A DNA stretch of 42,663 bases from Flavobacteriales bacterium. GTDB lineage: Bacteria > Bacteroidota > Bacteroidia > Flavobacteriales_E > Vicingaceae. The stretch is from the NCBI GenBank assembly GCA_029262875.1, contig JAJCYO010000042.1:1-42663 (forward strand). The letters are read 5' to 3'. How positions within the stretch are numbered: the first letter of the stretch is position 1; each line of letters opens with the position of its first letter. Shown one piece after another: positions 15,210-24,253 of this stretch. The notes below the pieces were generated by a model that saw only the letters and a list, made by a program, of their open reading frames with translations, searched no databases and was not told the DNA's origin. A program made the translations under genes and the position numbers.

Positions 15210-18200
15210 ATGCTAAAAAAAGCACTTCTTATTTTAACACTGATTTCTCTAACACAAATGAGCTTTGCTCAGTTTGTAGATGACTTTACAGATGGGGATT
15301 TTATCGCCAATCCAGTTTGGTCTGGTGATAACGGTTTGTTTACCGTAACCGCCAATCAATTGAATTCACAAAGTGCAGTTGCCAATGTTTATTACTTGAG
15401 CACCCCTTCTACGTTAGCCGCTAATGCACAATGGGACTTTTTCTTTAACATGCAGTTTGGTACTTCAGGAGCCAATTTTGTGGATGTATATTTAATGTCT
15501 GATGTTGCAAATGTTACCACCCCAAACGATGGTTACTTTGTAAGAATCGGAGGAACTCCGGACGAAGTTTCATTGTATAAAATAGTTGCAGGAGCGCCTA
15601 CCATATTAATAGATGGACCTGACGGGGTGGTGAACAGTAGTTCTAATAACCCATTTGATGTTCGTGTTACAAGAGATGCTGCTGACAATTGGACCTTGTT
15701 TTATGATGATGGCGCAGCGAGCAGTTTGGTGTCTATAGGAAGTGTCATGGATAACTCGGTGAATGTTTCTAACTTTTTTGGAATAGCCATAACCCAATCG
15801 GGAGCAGCTGGGCCAGTTAACAGTCATTTCTTCGATAATTTTAGTGTAGGGCCAATTTTAGGAGATACGGCTTCACCATTAATAGACTCTCTTATTGTTG
15901 TGAACTCCACCAATTTAGATGCGTATTTTAATGAGCCAGTTGATTTAACAACTGCTCAAGCCTTAACCAATTATTCTGTTGATGTAGGAATAGGAACCCC
16001 GAGTTTAGCCGTTAGAGATGCATTGGATTCTTCCATTGTACACTTAACTTTTGCCACACCTTTTGTAAACGGACAACCTTATAATTTAACCATTAGCAAT
16101 GTAGAAGATACCTTGTCAAATGCAACTGCAGGAATCGTTCAGCCTTTCATTTATATCTTAGTTATTGCACCGAATGCTGGGGATGTGGTTATCAATGAAG
16201 TTTTTCCTGACCCAAACCCACAAGTGAGTTTGCCGATAGAAGAATTTGTGGAAATATACAATACTTCTAATAATGCATTTGTCCTCAACAATTGGCAATT
16301 TATAAATTCAACCACAGCTAAAACACTTCCTAATTTTGTGTTGGCGCCAGACAGCTATGTGATTATTTGTGATGTGAACGATACTGCATTGTATACGCCT
16401 TATGGAGATGTAATAGGCGTAAGTTCGTTTACTGCATTAACCAATGGAGGCGATAGTTTAACGTTGATGGATGACAACAGTAATGTGTTGGACATTGTAA
16501 AGTACGACATCAGTTGGTATCAAGATGCTGTAAAGGATGATGGTGGTTGGACTTTAGAAAGAATTAACCCAAAACACCCGTGTAGTAATTCCTTAAATTG
16601 GATTGCTTCATCTGATCCAAATGGGGGAACACCAGGAACACAAAATTCTGTTTTTGATACCTTGCCAGATGCGACAGCACCACTAATTGCCTCGGTAAAC
16701 ATTATTAGCACCACTCAAATTAGTGCTTTGTTTAACGAAACGATGGACAGCACCAGTTTAGCAAATGCGGTGTATACCATTACAGGAGGAATTTCAGTAA
16801 CCTTGGTTACAGTGAACAATGACAATCAAGGGGTGACGATTACCGTTAATCCAGCCTTGGATTCATCAACGGTTTATACGTTAACAATCGTTGGAGCAAA
16901 TGACTGTTCTGGAAACTTATTAAACCCAAACTTTATTGATTTTGGAATCGGCAAAGCACCTTTGAAGTATGAAATAGTGATCAACGAATTGTTTGCAGAC
17001 CCTTCTCCTACGATGGGTTTACCAACAGAGGATTATTTAGAGTTGTACAACACCACTACAAAAATTATTGACTTAACCAATTGCTGGATTTCTGATTTAA
17101 CCAGCATGGATCAATTGAATGCGGGAAAAATTTTACCGGGAGAACATGTTATTGTTTGTGATGATGCTTTTGCAAATCAGTATTCACCTTTTGGAAAAGT
17201 AATTACCGTAAACAGTTTCCCATCGCTAAACAATGCAGACGATGAGATTACAATCTCAAGCCCTGATACGAACCTGGTTCACCAAGTTCATTATTACGAT
17301 ACGTGGTATCGAGATGACAACAAAAAAGATGGCGGTTGGAGTTTAGAGATGATAGACCCCAACAATCCTTGTGGAGAAGCAGAAAATTGGATTGCTTCTG
17401 CCAAATGGTTTGGAGGAACACCAGGAACACAGAATACTGCTTTTGGAGCTAACCCAGATGTCGTTTTGCCAATGCTTACCGAAGCCAATGCAATAGACGA
17501 CTCTACTGTGATGGTTACTTTCAGCGAGCCCTTAGACAATGCTGGGATGATGGCGGCTATTTATGTCATTGACAATGGGATTACGATTGGAACGATTCAA
17601 ATCATTGACAGTAAAAATGTACAGTTGAACTTGAGCAATAAGCTAACTTTTCAAATAAAATATGTGGTTACCGTAACGGGTGCTTTTGATTGTGTGGGCA
17701 ATGTCATAGGGTCAAACAACACAGCTGTATTTGCATTGCCGGAGCAAGGATTTGCAGGAGACCTAATCATTAACGAAGTACTGTTTAACCCTTACACAGG
17801 AGGGTCTGATTTTGTAGAAATTTACAACAACTCCAACAAGTTCATTAACATTCAAGGGTGGAATTTGGCCAATTTAGACAATGACAGCATTGACAATTAT
17901 GACGAGTTAACAAGCAATCCAAAATTGATATTACCAGGCGAATTCGTACTCTTAACCAAAGACGCTCAAAATGTGCAAGACGAGTACATCAATTCTGTGG
18001 CGGATGCATTTTTACAAATGGCGGCTTTACCAACGTATAGTAATGATGAAGGTAGTGTTTACCTCATCAATAACTTAAACATGCCGGTAGACAGTTTTCA
18101 TTATACCGATGACATGCACTTTGCGTTGTTGAACAGTGAAGATGGCGTATCCTTAGAACGAATCGATTACGATAGACCAAGTACTGATGAAACCAATTGG

Positions 18201-18596
18201 CATTCTGCTGCCGAAGATGTTGGTTTTGCAACACCCGGTTATGAGAATTCTCAATACTTAAAAGCGAATACCGATGGTGGTGAGATTACCATTTCTCCTG
18301 CTACTTTCTCTCCAGATAACGATGGTGTAGATGATGTAGTGAACATTGCCTATCAATTTCCTAACCCAGGATTTGTAGCGAGCATTATCATCTATGATTC
18401 CAAAGGAAGGTTAATAAGAAACTTGATCCAAAGTGAATTGTTAGGTGCATCAGGAACTTTCAGTTGGGATGGCATTAACGAAAATGCCGAGAAAGCACGT
18501 ATAGGCATTTACATCATTTTTGTAGAAGCTTTTGGTGTGGATGGTGATGTAAAATCGTTTAAGAAAACGGTGGTGTTGGCTGGGCAGTTGGAATAG
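15210..18596 (+). CDS. Large secreted protein with three lamin-tail domains and an unusual FlgD/CHU_C-like C-terminal domain
   Basis: A 1128-residue exported protein. A signal peptide ends at about residue 20 (MSFAQ). Residues ~21-215 form a lectin/laminin-G-like region (DDFTDGDF ... FDNFSVGPI). Three lamin-tail domains follow: ~325-484 (VVINEVFPDP), ~588-747 (IVINELFADP) and ~851-1019 (LIINEVLFNP). Each ends in a '(S)LERI/EMI ... TPGTQN / TPGYEN' segment. Ig-like 'D...P.....' modules of the SbsA type separate them. The last ~100 residues (ISPATFSPDNDGVDDVV, IIIYDSKGRLIRNL, FSWDG, IGIYIIFVEAF, then KKTVVLAGQLE) resemble both FlgD-type and T9SS type B domains, but lack the canonical 'FNRWG' segment. 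Surface display through T9SS is inferred. Four small membrane-protein genes follow on the same strand. Confidence 0.85.
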   Translation: MLKKALLILTLISLTQMSFAQFVDDFTDGDFIANPVWSGDNGLFTVTANQLNSQSAVANVYYLSTPSTLAANAQWDFFFNMQFGTSGANFVDVYLMSDVANVTTPNDGYFVRIGGTPDEVSLYKIVAGAPTILIDGPDGVVNSSSNNPFDVRVTRDAADNWTLFYDDGAASSLVSIGSVMDNSVNVSNFFGIAITQSGAAGPVNSHFFDNFSVGPILGDTASPLIDSLIVVNSTNLDAYFNEPVDLTTAQALTNYSVDVGIGTPSLAVRDALDSSIVHLTFATPFVNGQPYNLTISNVEDTLSNATAGIVQPFIYILVIAPNAGDVVINEVFPDPNPQVSLPIEEFVEIYNTSNNAFVLNNWQFINSTTAKTLPNFVLAPDSYVIICDVNDTALYTPYGDVIGVSSFTALTNGGDSLTLMDDNSNVLDIVKYDISWYQDAVKDDGGWTLERINPKHPCSNSLNWIASSDPNGGTPGTQNSVFDTLPDATAPLIASVNIISTTQISALFNETMDSTSLANAVYTITGGISVTLVTVNNDNQGVTITVNPALDSSTVYTLTIVGANDCSGNLLNPNFIDFGIGKAPLKYEIVINELFADPSPTMGLPTEDYLELYNTTTKIIDLTNCWISDLTSMDQLNAGKILPGEHVIVCDDAFANQYSPFGKVITVNSFPSLNNADDEITISSPDTNLVHQVHYYDTWYRDDNKKDGGWSLEMIDPNNPCGEAENWIASAKWFGGTPGTQNTAFGANPDVVLPMLTEANAIDDSTVMVTFSEPLDNAGMMAAIYVIDNGITIGTIQIIDSKNVQLNLSNKLTFQIKYVVTVTGAFDCVGNVIGSNNTAVFALPEQGFAGDLIINEVLFNPYTGGSDFVEIYNNSNKFINIQGWNLANLDNDSIDNYDELTSNPKLILPGEFVLLTKDAQNVQDEYINSVADAFLQMAALPTYSNDEGSVYLINNLNMPVDSFHYTDDMHFALLNSEDGVSLERIDYDRPSTDETNWHSAAEDVGFATPGYENSQYLKANTDGGEITISPATFSPDNDGVDDVVNIAYQFPNPGFVASIIIYDSKGRLIRNLIQSELLGASGTFSWDGINENAEKARIGIYIIFVEAFGVDGDVKSFKKTVVLAGQLE

Positions 18597-18621
18597 AAAG
18601 AGACTTCTTTATGTTTATAGG

Positions 18622-18813
18622 ATGATTATGGTATTTATTATAGTTTCTCTTGTTTCAATAGGAATTGCAATTGGAGGATCAGTATGTGTCTGGCACTTTA
18701 TTCAAAATAGGATACGCTCTCAATGGATTCGCACGGTAATAGTCTTCTTCTCTTTTCCTTTCTTATTTTTAACTTCCTTTAGAGTTTTAATGTGGATTTT
18801 CGAAAACTATTGA
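18622..18813 (+). CDS. Small two-helix membrane protein, unknown
   Basis: A 63-residue protein (61 if the second ATG at 18628 is used). Two hydrophobic segments, about residues 1-27 and 38-58, are separated by a basic loop (QNRIRSQWIR). I do not recognise a family. It begins 26 bases after the lamin-tail protein stop, so read-through is possible. TATGTTTA, one base off the -7 consensus, lies five bases before the ATG. It is the first of four small same-strand membrane-protein genes. Coding status is supported by the hydrophobic pattern, tight packing and the neighbours, but the protein is short. Confidence 0.55.
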   Translation: MIMVFIIVSLVSIGIAIGGSVCVWHFIQNRIRSQWIRTVIVFFSFPFLFLTSFRVLMWIFENY

Positions 18814-18830
18814 TATTGTATATTTATTGA

Positions 18831-19331
18831 ATGACTGAAGTAAAGAAACAGAACAAGAATGTTGGGCGTATCATTAGTTACTCTACAGGAGCTTGTTATT
18901 TTTTTTACGGGGGATTTTCTCTTTTGATAGTCTATCTTCAGAAAATGATGATATCAACAGTTGAAAACCAAATGGGCGATGAGATAGATTACTTTAATAC
19001 GATGCATACTATTTTCCTTGAATACCTTCCTTATCTTATGTTATTAGGAGTAGGTTATCTTCTCTTTGGTTTATTTTATAAAAAATTGGGATCATATAAG
19101 TTTCTCATAAATATTCTACTCGCGATTATCTCTGTTTTAGGTGTAATATCTTACACTTCCACAATCTCAGGTAATGAAACTATCACGTCTGAATTTTCAA
19201 GTATGCCAGATGAAATATCTGGTGCCATGGACACTGTTCTTGTTGTGAGTTACATTGTTATTTTCTCATTTTTCACAGTTCCACAATTTATAATAGGAAG
19301 AAAAATTTTACTTGGGGATGGAAGAAATTAA
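18831..19331 (+). CDS. Four-helix integral membrane protein, unknown
   Basis: A 166-residue inner membrane protein. After a basic N-terminal tail (MTEVKKQNKNVGR) come hydrophobic segments at about 14-35, 63-84, 90-110 and 132-155. The ~28-residue polar loops between segments 1-2 and 3-4 probably face the periplasm. No enzymatic motif or known family is evident. The gene starts 17 bases after the preceding small membrane-protein gene, and its end overlaps the next gene by 14 bases. This indicates one transcript and probably coupled translation with the Imm17-like gene. Confidence 0.65.
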   Translation: MTEVKKQNKNVGRIISYSTGACYFFYGGFSLLIVYLQKMMISTVENQMGDEIDYFNTMHTIFLEYLPYLMLLGVGYLLFGLFYKKLGSYKFLINILLAIISVLGVISYTSTISGNETITSEFSSMPDEISGAMDTVLVVSYIVIFSFFTVPQFIIGRKILLGDGRN

Positions 19332-19578
19332 CCTAAGTGAGTTAAAGGAATTGGTCTTGCCATATATTGCACTTATTGGTGGAGCTTGGACTATAGTAGG
19401 AAGCATTCTTAATTGGAACATCTTTTTTGATAATGGGTTAGCTGGTGCAATAGCTAAATCAATTGGCAGAACGCCAGCAAGAATGATTTATATAACATTC
19501 GGAACCTTAATGATTGTATTGGCATTGTATTTAAAACCTGAATGGTATGAATTCCTTTCAAATTTGAAATGGGAATAA
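19318..19578 (+). CDS. Imm17-like two-helix membrane protein (possible immunity protein)
   Basis: An 86-residue protein with two transmembrane segments, about residues 13-34 and 57-75. The motif layout is a first helix followed by 'GSILNWNIFF', then a polar stretch, then 'IGRTPARMIYITFGTLMIV'. This agrees with what I recall of the immunity protein 17 family: two helices, an 'NW..FF' motif and 'GR..AR..Y...G'. Imm17 proteins are found beside polymorphic toxin genes, but they also occur as solitary genes in Bacteroidota, and no toxin is recognisable here. The ATG at 19318 was preferred to a TTG two codons upstream. It overlaps the previous membrane-protein gene by 14 bases. Confidence 0.6.
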   Translation: MEEINLSELKELVLPYIALIGGAWTIVGSILNWNIFFDNGLAGAIAKSIGRTPARMIYITFGTLMIVLALYLKPEWYEFLSNLKWE

Positions 19579-19590
19579 CCCTTCCTCAAA

Positions 19591-19598
19591 TATCTTTG
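19591..19598 (+). promoter_or_regulatory. Probable -7 promoter element of the 60-residue membrane protein gene
   Basis: TATCTTTG is a full match to TAnnTTTG, 13 bases before the ATG at 19612. A TTTG lies at 19563-19566, spaced 24 bases, slightly longer than usual. The last small gene of the cluster may thus have its own promoter. Confidence 0.4.
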
Positions 19599-19611
19599 TT
19601 ATATTTATTTC

Positions 19612-19794
19612 ATGTTTATAGTTCCCGTAATTTTTCAGTTTATGTTACTTGTAATGGGGGGTGTAATTTATTCGATGGGATTCTTATTTGGTAGGGTTAA
19701 AATAGTCAAAATTATATTACAAGTAATTGGTGGGGCAGCCGTTCTTTTAGCCCTTGTTAATCTTTTCATCATAGCATGGGGCCTTTTTACATAA
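19612..19794 (+). CDS. Small two-helix membrane protein, unknown
   Basis: A 60-residue, almost wholly hydrophobic protein with two segments, about residues 3-26 and 33-57. They are separated by a short basic turn (GRVKIVK). No family was recognised. It lies 33 bases after the Imm17-like gene, behind a TATCTTTG element, and is followed by a strong terminator at 19829-19860. Phospholamban-like or small-complex-subunit roles are possible, but nothing in the sequence decides between them. Confidence 0.5.
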   Translation: MFIVPVIFQFMLLVMGGVIYSMGFLFGRVKIVKIILQVIGGAAVLLALVNLFIIAWGLFT

Positions 19795-19828
19795 CGTATA
19801 TTTTATGTTAAAGTTAATGGTATAAAAC

Positions 19829-19860
19829 AAAAAAAGGGAAGCACATGCTTCCCTTTTTTT
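19829..19860. terminator. Bidirectional Rho-independent terminator
   Basis: A near-perfect hairpin: the arm with GGGAAGC is preceded by seven A, the loop is ACAT, and the arm with GCTTCCC is followed by seven T. The flanking A and T runs let it work in both directions. It serves the small-membrane-protein cluster (plus) and the type B cargo gene ending at 19876 (minus). Confidence 0.9.
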
Positions 19861-19875
19861 GCTATAAAGGTTTAT

Positions 19876-22296
19876 TTACTTTTTATTAAATACCGTTACC
19901 GAATTCGTAATCACATCGGCTTCTAATATTCCACCAGGTGTTAAAATGTAGAAGTAAGTTCCATCAGAAAGATCTGATGGGCTCCAGTCGTTGAGGTAAT
20001 TTTCGTTTTCATAGATCTTTTTTCCCCATCGGTTAAACACGACTAAGTGACTTCCCGGGTAACGATCCAACCCCTCAAAGAAGAGGGCATCATTTTCACC
20101 ATCATCGTTTGGTGTAATTACATTAGGCGCAAAAATGTCACAAATCATAGTAGTTACCGTTACCGTATCAGCGGCAACGTTACATAGCCCACTTACAGCC
20201 ACATAATAAGCTCCAGAATCAGTTACATCAATAGTTGGAGAGGTGAGTCCATTACTCCACAAATAGGAGGCCTCAACAACTTGAGAGGTGGCATCCAGCG
20301 TGGCAGCATCACCTACACAGAAATCTGCTGTAACCAAGTCAACAAATACCGAATCGGCAAAATAGACATCAATGGTACTATCCAAGTTACAATAGTTATC
20401 TGTAAAGGTAAAGGCATAAGTGCCATTAACATTAACATTAACTAAAGGATTTTCTACATTTTGGTTCGGTAAAAAAGAGGCGGTTCCAGGACCAGAATAC
20501 GTCCAAATTCCTCCTGCATATGATGTTGTATTAGCCATTTGATACTGTCCGGCACAGGCAAAAGATCCAACAACCTCTATAGATGGTACAGGTATAAATT
20601 CTACAAAAACAGTAGTGTCATAAGTACATCCAAAATTATCAATTACTTGCATGGTATACCCAAAAGTTCCTGGGGAGTTTGAAGACACCACAATAAAAGT
20701 ATCTGTAGGCAATCCAGGCAATACAGTTGCACCAGAAAGCCACTGGGCAGAAACAATATTAGGAACATAAGTTTCTTGGTTAGGGTTAATGTTTGGATCA
20801 AATACAATCCCCCATTCGAAAATATATCCGTCATCAACACCTAAATTATCTCTAACTGTAATGGTCCAGTTTCCATTAATAGGGCAACCAATAAAACTGG
20901 CAAAAGAGGTTTCTGGCAGGTAAATTCCCGCAGGGTTCATCGCTTGACCAGCTGATATTGTGGTTGGAACAGTGTTTCCTCCAGCAAATTCTGTTGGAAA
21001 ACTACCCCAGGTTGCGTTTACTGTAGACCATTTGTATTCCCAACCAACCCCTGGTGTTCCCAAGTTGTTGTCAAAGGCATCTCCCAAGTAGGTTCCTCCC
21101 CCATTAAATCCACCTGGAATAATTCCTGGAGAGTAGCTATTAAAAATAGTTGCTTGCGTACCATTTGGGCATTCCAATAACATCTCCAAATCTCCCAAAT
21201 AAGAGTGCTCCATGGTAATGCTTAATTCTTGAATATCACTTGCAGCAGTAATGGTTTGTGCAGGTAAAAAACCGCTAATACCAACCGTTGTCGTATAATT
21301 TAATCCACTACCATCAGGTAACCATGTTAACCCTGCAAAAGTTCCTCCCAATTGGAAATTAGAACTTGTGGGGTCTACACCAGAAGTATCGGAAGATGTA
21401 ACAGCGCCAACTATAAGTGTTGTGTCACCCACACAAACAGTATCTCTGTTAATAAGTACCCCAGTAAAACTGGGTATAGTAGAAACCCTCACTTTAGATT
21501 GTATGGATTGTGATTGAGGAAATGAGTCTGTAATTTTTAGTGTAACAATGTATCCGCTTCTGGCAGGAGGTTTAAACCAAGCCGTATCTCCTGTCGCTTG
21601 TGTTCCATCACTAAATGTCCAGTCAAAAGTTACATTTCCAGCATTTTGAGAATAACCAACCCCAGTAACATCAGAAGAGTAAGGGAAAACACCAGTAGCC
21701 ACAAACATAATAGAATCATCAAAACAAACATCTGCATAACCTGTATCAGCAGGGTTGATGATATCAGGACCAGCACCATTTAAATAGCCTGCCATTTTTG
21801 GTTCAAATGGCTGTGGAATGGTAACACAAGTTACATTCGCATCCCAACCAATACCTTCAACGGCACCATCAGAAACAAACTGAACAGTTAAACAGCCACT
21901 AGGGTTATTTATAAAACTTGCAACATGGTTAAAACCAGTTGGAGCATTGTTCGTATTATAAGCACCTAATAAAGGTGATGAAGTATTTGGGCCATCATAA
22001 ACGTAAACCGTATCACTTGCATCTACTCCAAATAATAACCCTGTATTTATTCCAAAAGTTAGGGCCAATTTAGAAGTTCCTCCAGCAAAATCAGGACAAA
22101 TAGTAATTACCTCATTTTCGTTAGGTCCATAATTAGCTGAATTATTTCCAGAGTCAAAAAAGTTTGGTGCAGGACCAGCATTAGCAGCACAATCCAAAGG
22201 ATTTAGTGTGTCTAAATCAGGATCTGTAATCAGTATTTGAGAAAATGATACTGATGAATAAACAAGTGCAATTGCGATAACGATAAGTTTCTTCAT
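19876..22296 (-). CDS. Secreted CUB / PKD-like / P-domain protein with type B T9SS C-terminal domain
   Basis: An 806-residue exported protein. The signal peptide ends at about residue 20 (SVSFSQ). Residues ~30-155 look like a CUB domain (DTVYVYDGPNTSSPLLG, then GCLTVQFVSDG). A PKD-like module follows (VTFDWTFSDGTQATGD, ~225-270). A proprotein-convertase P-domain-like unit spans ~330-500 (SITMEHSYLGDLEMLLECP, then NWTITVRDNLGVDDG). Ig-like repeats come next. The C-terminal ~86 residues begin APNVITPNDDGENDALFF and contain LVVFNRWGKKIYEN, the type B (gliding-motility-associated) T9SS sorting domain. No protease active site was seen, so it is a binding or structural surface protein by inference. 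Its ATG is one base after the stop of the small exported-protein gene upstream. Confidence 0.88.
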   Translation of the reverse strand: MKKLIVIAIALVYSSVSFSQILITDPDLDTLNPLDCAANAGPAPNFFDSGNNSANYGPNENEVITICPDFAGGTSKLALTFGINTGLLFGVDASDTVYVYDGPNTSSPLLGAYNTNNAPTGFNHVASFINNPSGCLTVQFVSDGAVEGIGWDANVTCVTIPQPFEPKMAGYLNGAGPDIINPADTGYADVCFDDSIMFVATGVFPYSSDVTGVGYSQNAGNVTFDWTFSDGTQATGDTAWFKPPARSGYIVTLKITDSFPQSQSIQSKVRVSTIPSFTGVLINRDTVCVGDTTLIVGAVTSSDTSGVDPTSSNFQLGGTFAGLTWLPDGSGLNYTTTVGISGFLPAQTITAASDIQELSITMEHSYLGDLEMLLECPNGTQATIFNSYSPGIIPGGFNGGGTYLGDAFDNNLGTPGVGWEYKWSTVNATWGSFPTEFAGGNTVPTTISAGQAMNPAGIYLPETSFASFIGCPINGNWTITVRDNLGVDDGYIFEWGIVFDPNINPNQETYVPNIVSAQWLSGATVLPGLPTDTFIVVSSNSPGTFGYTMQVIDNFGCTYDTTVFVEFIPVPSIEVVGSFACAGQYQMANTTSYAGGIWTYSGPGTASFLPNQNVENPLVNVNVNGTYAFTFTDNYCNLDSTIDVYFADSVFVDLVTADFCVGDAATLDATSQVVEASYLWSNGLTSPTIDVTDSGAYYVAVSGLCNVAADTVTVTTMICDIFAPNVITPNDDGENDALFFEGLDRYPGSHLVVFNRWGKKIYENENYLNDWSPSDLSDGTYFYILTPGGILEADVITNSVTVFNKK

Positions 22297-22297
22297 G

Positions 22298-22684
22298 TTA
22301 TTTTTTATTTAACTCTCTTAAAATGTGATTTTTTGATTTAACAATTAATATCTTTTTGGTGCCTTTAATGACAAAAGATTGGTAGTCATTTTCTTTTAAA
22401 TCAATGTTTAATTGATAAAAATCAATTTTTGAAATGTTCTTTATGCTAACCTCTCCAAACTTTGATGGGTTCGCCTTCACTTTTTCTTGGGGCATTTCAG
22501 CGATGTAAAAAGCATTTTCTATACAGTAGTTGATAAACTTGTATTCTTTAGGGTTTTCAGCTTTAATGGTTTTCAGTTCTTCAACGGTGTATTTAGCAAG
22601 CAATCTTTTATCTGTTTTATTGTTTTGAGCTAATGTTGAAATTGAAATGGTAATAAATGCAATAATTAGTAAGGCGTTCTTCAT
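22298..22684 (-). CDS. Small exported protein, unknown, paired with the type B cargo gene
   Basis: A 128-residue protein starting MKNALLIIAFITISISTLAQ, a clear signal peptide cleaved after residue ~19. An upstream ATG 19 codons earlier would bury this signal and was rejected. The mature part is lysine-rich (DKRLLAKYTVEELKTIKAENPKEYKFINYCIENAFYI, given here only to mark residues ~24-60) and has no transmembrane segment. I do not recognise the family. Its stop is one base before the ATG of the 806-residue type B cargo protein, so the pair is almost certainly one operon. A periplasmic partner, or an independent small protein of the same regulon, are both possible. Confidence 0.75.
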   Translation of the reverse strand: MKNALLIIAFITISISTLAQNNKTDKRLLAKYTVEELKTIKAENPKEYKFINYCIENAFYIAEMPQEKVKANPSKFGEVSIKNISKIDFYQLNIDLKENDYQSFVIKGTKKILIVKSKNHILRELNKK

Positions 22685-22872
22685 AATATTCTTTTTACTA
22701 TTGACGAGTAGGTTTTTACAAAAGTTGCACGAAGTTAACAAAATCCGAATAGTTTAACAAACGCAAGCAGATTTGTTAATTTTTAGCAATCCAATAATTC
22801 TCTGTATTGGTGTGATTTAGGAACTTTTTTTTTGAAGAAAGAAATCATATTTAATTTTGTAAAAACAAATAG

Positions 22873-22880
22873 TAAATTTG
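22873..22880 (+). promoter_or_regulatory. Probable -7 promoter element of the VWA-protein/dxr transcript
   Basis: TAAATTTG, a full TAnnTTTG match, lies 45 bases before the VWA-protein ATG. A TTTTG lies 13 bases upstream, short of ideal -33 spacing. The divergent 183-base stretch 22742-22924 also contains a 6-bp hairpin (CCAATA at 22791-22796, TATTGG at 22805-22810); nothing else was seen in it. Confidence 0.45.
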
Positions 22881-22924
22881 TACACATATTTTAATTTGGC
22901 AGCAAATTTGCCTCATACAAAAAC

Positions 22925-24253
22925 ATGAATAAAATACTTACCATACTAATTGGATTATTCTTCTTGAATAATCTTTCTGGGCAAGTTATTTTTAATACCT
23001 CTTACCATGATTTAGGGGAAATAAACAAGGAGGACAAAAAGTACTTTGATTTCACATTAACCAATGCGGGGAAAGAAACGGCTTATTTATTAAGGGTAGA
23101 GGAACCTTATGGAATAGATGTGAAATTTTCTAAGAAAGAAATTTTACCAGATAGCACTATAATTGTTCGGATAAAATACACTCCTAAAAAGAAAGGAGCA
23201 TTTAAAAAAGATGTTCCGGTTTGGGTAAGTGTAAACAATGAACCGATAACGCTAACTATAGAGGGAGATGCAAAAACATTTGACATTAATGAGTCATTGC
23301 AATGCCCTGATTTTACAACAAAAAAGCAACCTAAGGATTTAAAATCTGATTTAAAAATTAAGGTGGTTGATGTAAACACGAAAGAGCCTATTAAGAACGC
23401 TACGGTAGAAATAATTTGGGATGGACTGAACTATAAACAGCTTAAAACAGACAAAAATGGGGAGATCATTCAAAAATTAAAATGGGAGATCTATTATTTT
23501 GTGGTGAATGCTGAGGGTTATGGAACCAAGGAAACCGACTTTTATGTAAATGAAAAAAACAATTCCATAGAATTTCAGTTGGGCGAACCAACAGAGGAAG
23601 AAATAATAGCGGCAAAAGAAGATACGATTGTTGAAGAAGTGGTAGTGATTGAGCCTGAAGATACTGTTTCTACAAAAGAATTACCAGTTAATTTATTTGC
23701 ACCGAACAACGTGGTCTTTTGTATAGATATTTCTGTTTCTATGAAACAAAAAGGAAGATTAGATTTATTAAAAGCTTCTATGATTGAGCTGTTAAATGGA
23801 CTTCGCCCAATAGACAAGTTGGCAATTGTAACGTATGCATCCTCAACAGATGTGCTATTAGAATCGCAATACGTTACAGATAAAGCCAGCATTATGCAAC
23901 TCATAAAAGACTTAACAGCTGGTGGGTATACAGCAGGAGGAAAAGGAATTAAAAGAGCCTATCAAGTGGCAAGAGAAAACACCATTGAAGGAGGAAATAA
24001 CCAAGTAATTATTGCTACGGATGGAGCGTTTAATTTGGATAAAGGAGATAGAGGGATTTTAAAAAATGTGGAGTCTAACCTTAAAAAAGGAGTAACCATT
24101 TCTGTTGTAGGTGTAAAAAATGAAAAATGGACTGTGAAGTCGATGTCATCTATTGCAAAAACAGGAGATGGACATTACATTCACATCAAATCTTACGAGC
24201 AGGCCAAGAGCGTTTTAATGGATGAAATTAAAATGAACTCAAGAAAAAAATAA
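22925..24253 (+). CDS. Exported DUF1573-like / carboxypeptidase-regulatory-like / VWA-domain protein
   Basis: A 442-residue protein. The signal peptide ends near residue 19 (LSGQ). Residues ~20-118 are a DUF1573/HYDIN-type Ig-like domain (YHDLGEINKEDKKYFDFTLTN). Residues ~145-212 form a carboxypeptidase-regulatory-like sandwich (VVDVNTKEPIKNATVEI). An acidic linker leads to a von Willebrand A domain at ~260-435. The VWA domain has the MIDAS motif as DISVSM, with downstream TYASST, TAGG and ATDGAFN. It should bind a divalent cation and a protein ligand outside the cytoplasm; the ligand is unknown. Its stop is followed after three bases by the TTG start of dxr, so the two are almost certainly co-transcribed. 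Confidence 0.85.
   Translation: MNKILTILIGLFFLNNLSGQVIFNTSYHDLGEINKEDKKYFDFTLTNAGKETAYLLRVEEPYGIDVKFSKKEILPDSTIIVRIKYTPKKKGAFKKDVPVWVSVNNEPITLTIEGDAKTFDINESLQCPDFTTKKQPKDLKSDLKIKVVDVNTKEPIKNATVEIIWDGLNYKQLKTDKNGEIIQKLKWEIYYFVVNAEGYGTKETDFYVNEKNNSIEFQLGEPTEEEIIAAKEDTIVEEVVVIEPEDTVSTKELPVNLFAPNNVVFCIDISVSMKQKGRLDLLKASMIELLNGLRPIDKLAIVTYASSTDVLLESQYVTDKASIMQLIKDLTAGGYTAGGKGIKRAYQVARENTIEGGNNQVIIATDGAFNLDKGDRGILKNVESNLKKGVTISVVGVKNEKWTVKSMSSIAKTGDGHYIHIKSYEQAKSVLMDEIKMNSRKK

Follow-up and report, generated by a model that had tools for sequence, protein, structure and literature searches.

An apparently species-restricted cluster of small membrane proteins with a divergent Imm17 relative, and the genomic positions of Imm17-type genes

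We analyzed a cluster of four short genes, encoding the small membrane proteins A to D, in a window of 42,663 nucleotides. The window is the whole of contig C42 of a Flavobacteriales genome of 3.94 Mb in 173 contigs. The best reading of the cluster is a species-specific accessory islet, located in a gap that varies between relatives and is flanked by a conserved surface-protein gene and a conserved VWA-protein gene. Proteins B and C may form an accessory membrane pair within this islet, without a link to any toxin, a reading we hold with middling confidence. Judged by profile comparison, C is a real but divergent relative of immunity protein 17 (Imm17) at the superfamily level, below membership of PF15562. 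The features discussed are as follows.

15210-18596, + strand: neighbor outside the cluster, 1128 aa, with three stretches each of lamin-tail and Big_5 and, below threshold, a T9SS-type C terminus (Pfam)
18610-18617, + strand: TATGTTTA, a start-site motif or degenerate -7-type element, exactly 4 nt upstream of the A start codon (motif scan)
18622-18813, + strand: protein A, 63 aa, two membrane helices predicted, not assigned to a family (ORF list, hydropathy, family searches)
18819-18826, + strand: TATATTTA, exactly 4 nt upstream of the B start codon (motif scan)
18831-19331, + strand: protein B, 166 aa, unnamed family, four helices in a low-confidence model (ORF list, profile comparisons, model)
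19318-19578, + strand: protein C, 86 aa, ATG at 19318, two-helix hairpin, divergent relative of Imm17 (PF15562) (profiles, model)
19591-19598, + strand: TATCTTTG, a -7 promoter element that fits the Bacteroidota consensus perfectly, 13 nt upstream of the D start codon (sequence; consensus TAHHTTTG, PMC6847099)
19600-19607, + strand: TATATTTA, exactly 4 nt upstream of the D start codon (motif scan)
19612-19794, + strand: protein D, 60 aa, two membrane helices predicted; of the four genes, the one least well supported as coding (hydropathy, codon use)
19828-19861, no strand assigned: 15-pair terminator-like hairpin with A/T tracts, between convergent genes (fold -22 kcal/mol, z -6.1)

The ORF list bears out the four genes described in an earlier note on this DNA, together with the spacing of 17 bases between A and B, -14 bases between B and C (a 14-base overlap of the frames) and 33 bases between C and D. 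The two to four transmembrane helices per protein given in that note are upheld: hydropathy yields 2, 3, 2 and 2 membrane segments for A, B, C and D, and four long helices of B appear in a model of low confidence (pLDDT 58). ORFs of at least 59 aa with at least two membrane segments cover 88% of positions 18597-19875, a coverage that was reached in 0 of 1000 first-order resamplings (maximum 33%). Tandem membrane ORFs of this packing are not a product of chance. Synonymous codon use is gene-like in C, intermediate in A and B, and indistinguishable from random in D (P 0.20 under the random model and 0.011 under the gene model). Among the four, D has the weakest claim to be a gene. A, B and D, previously described as unrecognized, matched nothing significantly in Pfam, NCBIfam, PHROGs or PADLOC. 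Defense and phage families gave no match for A, C and D and weak noise for B, whose best library match, to CmlA (E 0.0055, 16 of 875 bits), was dismissed as noise. The searches for A and D across the 14 genomes of the genus returned chance-level matches alone (E 0.04 or worse), and A has no credible relative in the other 13 genomes (best E 0.13).

The packing of A to D is compatible with a single operon, yet D has its own -7-type element. Because the perfect -7 element (TATCTTTG) is found before D only among the cluster genes, D is likely to be separately transcribed. The motif TATRTTTA lies exactly 4 nt before the ATG of A, B and D, and start elements of this kind may mark separate promoters. 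It resembles the Bacteroidota -7 element TANNTTTG without its nearly invariant G, and the G in the element before A is almost never found in F. johnsoniae promoters (PMC6847099). Leaderless mRNAs account for 5.5% of those mapped in a flavobacterium (PMC9723704). Genome-wide, TATRTTTA-N4-ATG has 28 matches versus 9 for the reversed control; three of the 28 are in the cluster, an enrichment to be discounted because the motif was picked after being seen. Our own gene calls put 16 of these matches outside any longer ORF. Of the 16, 14 (the three in the cluster among them) start an ORF of at least 60 aa. Loosening the motif to a TANNTTT[GA]-type pattern gives no excess over expectation (65 versus 68), and a sigma-70-type promoter scan is uninformative for this phylum. 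Elsewhere in the same genome (L184, position 1513), another 60-aa two-helix ORF has a TATATTTA-N4-ATG start just after an apparent terminator hairpin. The strong terminator said to close the cluster was recovered as the 15-pair hairpin after D, a structure that a simple terminator scan did not list. As the hairpin sits between D and a convergent 806-aa gene, it may serve both.

We assessed the kinship of C to Imm17. The Pfam Imm17 profile (PF15562), which the earlier note had proposed as a check, scores C at 23.0 bits (E 7.3e-5), just below the gathering cut-off of 25; the score in the genome scan with the Imm17 profile is 23.8 bits. This cut-off is permissive in six-frame searches, in which a frame with a stop codon in the same genome (G000:C153:20891-20986) scores 24.7 bits, and 25.1 with its neighbors in frame, and so passes it. 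Since such a frame makes scores near the cut-off unsafe, we built a leave-one-out profile from 10 Imm17 relatives with C excluded. C scores 44.8 bits with this profile. Hydropathy-preserving permutations of C reached at most 16.5 bits (4979 of 5000 scored), full shuffles at most 10.5 bits (4887 scored), and none of the 35 small membrane ORFs scored as unrelated controls exceeded 5.1 bits. C keeps G22, W33, F37, R51, R55 and G62, six columns that are invariant across the 23 aligned sequences, C included. The AlphaFold model of C, made with the 23-sequence alignment, has a pLDDT of 92.9 and shows helices at residues 6-30 and 51-72 with two short helices between them; the invariant R51 and R55 are at the start of the second helix.

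Imm17 has been described as having two transmembrane helices with WxW and R between them and as occurring in heterogeneous polyimmunity loci (Zhang et al. 2012, PMC3482391). The model of C has the two helices, and C has the arginine between them; at the WxW position it reads W-N-I. Several clear Imm17 relatives read W-D/N/E-F at this position, so WxW is not universal in the family. The Imm17 likeness claimed in the earlier note is thus sound as homology, and fails at the Pfam cut-off and at WxW. Foldseek comparison of the C model with the PDB returned nothing at E 0.001, profile searches of PDB sequences returned no match, and C and B on plasmids and C in phages had no match at E 0.01. Candidate second Imm17 copies on C153 and C64 were rejected as frames with stops, and an Imm17 match on C112 was rejected as antisense to a transporter-like ORF.

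Profile comparisons place B in an unnamed family that is present elsewhere without C. No close relative of B was found in the 100 genomes searched. Its distant relatives are an ORF of 164 aa after a pntB-like gene (G079) and an ORF of 171 aa (G356), in other genomes of the class, with 21-22% identity to B in alignment A3. B scores 20.3 bits against the G079 ORF, where permutations of the target reached at most 11.1, and 24.7 bits against the G356 ORF, where they reached at most 22.5, a narrow margin (~3000 permutations in each case). The other cross-comparison directions in the family were likewise above all target permutations (~3000 each). Permutations of the target were used as the control; permutations of the query, which score up to 52, were set aside because many query positions are preserved in them. 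Pfam assigns the G079 and G356 relatives to no family; two matches of the latter (E 0.026 and 0.051) are noise. Neither relative adjoins an Imm17-type gene. Further weak hits of B, in G013, G033, G008, G125 and G157, come from frames with stops and were set aside. The single-sequence model of B was too poor to serve as the query of a fold search.

The site of the cluster varies between relatives. The earlier note had suggested a tie between the cluster and the lamin-tail protein. That protein has a match at E 1e-20 in 45 of 47 genomes (often as separate pieces), whereas the B and C profiles match the window's genome only, one of 46 genomes of the order, all of one family. Given this distribution, the tie is unsupported. 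We surveyed 20 stretches after the best lamin-tail match, four of which are 4.1 kb or shorter, and found none of A to D at E 1e-3 in the first nine ORFs shown. An inorganic pyrophosphatase gene occupies the site in seven of the 20 (G009, G004, G005, G011, G016, G006 and G003), as called by sequence recognition, with one of the seven confirmed with Pfam. The closest relative, G010, has 127 bases at the site versus 1279 in the window, and G008 has 52 bases before the next gene. The G002 site has a 59-aa two-helix ORF with a TATATTTA element, and a sub-threshold DUF3800-like ORF lies further downstream; a 40-aa one-helix ORF is found in G013. Kinship of D to the 59-aa ORF was rejected (score 32 versus a permuted mean of 29.5, P 0.29). 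Depending on the species, the lamin-tail gene is followed at this site (18597-19875 in the window, L062-L078) by a pyrophosphatase gene, nothing, small membrane ORFs, other genes or the cluster. The GC3 of the cluster (0.275-0.303) is ordinary for the window (mean 0.275, sd 0.046), which does not support a foreign origin by base composition, and no flanking repeats marking an insertion were seen. It is therefore the distribution, and neither composition nor repeats, that suggests a recent arrival.

The proteins encoded at 15210-24253 carry LTD, Big_5, CHU_C, P_proprotein, PKD, VWA and DUF1573 domains (Pfam). No toxin domain was detected in the neighboring proteins scanned in this stretch, in agreement with the earlier remark that none was visible. 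A polymorphic toxin-immunity system has a toxin gene adjoining an immunity gene, and none was found here; polyimmunity has several tandem immunity-family genes, and here C alone resembles one. The genome-wide toxin search was for the RHS type, with no RHS-repeat match at E 0.001. The immunity reading of the cluster is not supported, because the lamin-tail and B-C distributions differ and there is no nearby toxin or second immunity family; the immunity array or toxin link offered in the earlier note falls with it. That note had looked to conserved neighborhoods for support, and to scattered homologs together with a missing Imm17 match for refutation. Homologs of B and C turn up at unrelated positions with no conserved association, whereas C does show kinship to Imm17.

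We determined the genomic positions of Imm17 relatives. A GTDB r220 genome scan gave 68 loci and a class search of 395 genomes gave 10 loci in nine genomes besides the window's. Two of these 78 loci are common to both sets, leaving 76; three identical-protein pairs within the 68 were kept. Neighbors were assigned by tblastn with exemplars, and TsaE, SRP54 and S16 were confirmed by Pfam. The Imm17-type gene is just after tsaE in 46 of the 76 loci, beside ffh and/or rpsP in 12 (between both in nine of them), and after an AIRS-family gene in five (Pfam: AIR-synthase domain only), which we take to be thiL. Thus 63 of the 76 loci adjoin one of these genes and 13 are elsewhere, proportions that do not apply family-wide because the scan pattern favors canonical Imm17 and the species are mostly gut Bacteroides-type and Ruminococcus-type. 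In the Bacteroidales, 41 loci of the GTDB scan and L052-L057 have the hairpin gene after tsaE, and the gap between the two genes is -4 to 45 bases (37 loci measured). The ffh/rpsP set is from Clostridia (L089, L091, L092, L096, L097, L098, L108, L110, L114, L121, L131 and L154); L091 and L092 have two tandem copies of the Imm17-type hairpin gene.

Among the 13 other loci, one to three neighbors or the fused protein were Pfam-scanned for nine, and L058, L112, L122 and L127 were judged by eye. The sole T6SS-like setting among the 76 is L060, where the Imm17-type gene has a VgrG-like/446-aa gene pair on one side and a 1515-aa RHS gene on the other. L126 (6004-7836) is a planctomycete Imm17 hairpin fused to HEAT repeats; its Imm17 score of 31.1 bits is over the cut-off. 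An endonuclease/exonuclease/phosphatase-family gene is upstream in L130 and in L122; in L130 it looks like a household gene, though a toxin is possible. L138 has enoyl-CoA hydratase and DUF427 neighbors and L061 has an HTH protein; scanned neighbors in L090, L093, L094 and L105 have no Pfam match. No convincing relative of A, B or D was found in the 78 loci, where a 27-residue blast match (E 0.05) and a short-ORF profile match (E 0.012) were taken as chance.

For the cluster itself, we most likely have a four-helix protein (B) and a hairpin (C) that would be made together by translational coupling across the 14-base overlap. C may pack against B via the conserved segment between its helices (W33, F37, R51, R55), and the likeliest job of the two would be that of a small accessory complex, presumably in the inner membrane, without a toxin partner. 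A and D would each be a small hairpin apart from this pair, and D is probably transcribed from a promoter of its own. The homology of C to Imm17 and of B to its two relatives, the restriction of B and C to the window's genome and the variable site count in favor of the B-C pair. Against it are the lack of a convincing B relative in the 78 Imm17 loci, the G079 and G356 relatives of B without an Imm17-type neighbor, the poor model of B, the narrow G356 margin, and the ordinary GC3 and lack of insertion repeats. A serious competitor, though a somewhat doubtful one, is that the four are unrelated small membrane genes that accumulated at a permissive location flanked by two core genes, with no joint function and D perhaps no gene at all. 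The TATRTTTA-N4-ATG start before each of A, B and D suggests separate units, A and D are without credible homologs in the genus, D has random-like codon use, and G002 and G013 have different small membrane ORFs at the site, the former with TATATTTA. However, the B-C overlap argues for co-expression of that pair at least, and tight packing over 88% of the region also counts against a mere pile-up.

We consider it unlikely that the cluster is an orphan (poly)immunity locus, a shield against competitors' membrane-acting or membrane-crossing toxins with its own toxin absent. An orphan immunity gene can do without a neighboring toxin, the islet is an accessory one in a variable location, and C is kin to a family that is listed in heterogeneous polyimmunity loci and for which a possible block on toxin uptake at the membrane has been suggested (PMC3482391). 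Imm17 domains have also been reported among the immunity genes of Neisseria maf islands (PMC4287609), and one of the 76 loci (L060) is a T6SS/RHS locus. However, A, B and D include no second immunity family, the Imm17 row of the published table names no toxin (PMC3482391), the genome has no RHS-repeat match in the RHS-type search, and 63 of the 76 relatives' loci adjoin housekeeping genes. A cluster that serves the preceding lamin-tail protein, for example as a dedicated membrane helper, is very improbable: A does begin on the same strand 25 bases past the stop codon of that gene, but the contrast between 45 of 47 and one of 46 genomes largely refutes this role, and in relatives other genes come after the lamin-tail gene.

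The accessory B-C pair without a toxin partner matters little beyond offering two unrecognized membrane proteins; that Imm17 mostly marks housekeeping positions is of more interest. The tsaE, ffh/rpsP and thiL positions do not appear in the available portions of the Imm17/PF15562 literature (PMC3482391, PMC4287609). As a tentative proposal, with a fair prospect of being right and a larger one of being wrong, PF15562 may be misnamed for most of its members. These would be old small membrane hairpins kept next to housekeeping genes (after tsaE or thiL, or between ffh and rpsP), perhaps aiding membrane-protein biogenesis or folding. A minority would have been drawn into immunity, and the window's divergent member would have acquired a four-helix partner by coupling, the two making up a new accessory membrane module. 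If the Imm17 name were taken at face value, annotation would label housekeeping-position hairpins as toxin-immunity genes. Most surveyed loci are unlike immunity loci, so the family name is testable.

We compared the cluster to known systems. It shares with the polyimmunity loci of Zhang et al. (2012) short tandem genes, one of which has immunity-family kinship, and differs in that only one of the four genes is immunity-like and the scanned neighbors have no toxin domain. C shares with Imm17 (PF15562) two membrane helices, conserved arginines between them, profile similarity and the six invariant columns, whereas it is below the cut-off, reads W-N-I, has no toxin or polyimmunity neighbors found, and overlaps a four-helix gene by 14 bases. 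The tsaE-linked and ffh-rpsP-linked relatives of the Bacteroidales and Clostridia belong to the same hairpin family; unlike C, they occupy recurrent housekeeping positions, have higher Imm17 profile scores where measured, and have no B-like partner found. Although the C-type neighbor is absent from G079 and G356, the family in these genomes resembles B in its similar length, its 21-22% identity and its scores over the permuted target controls.
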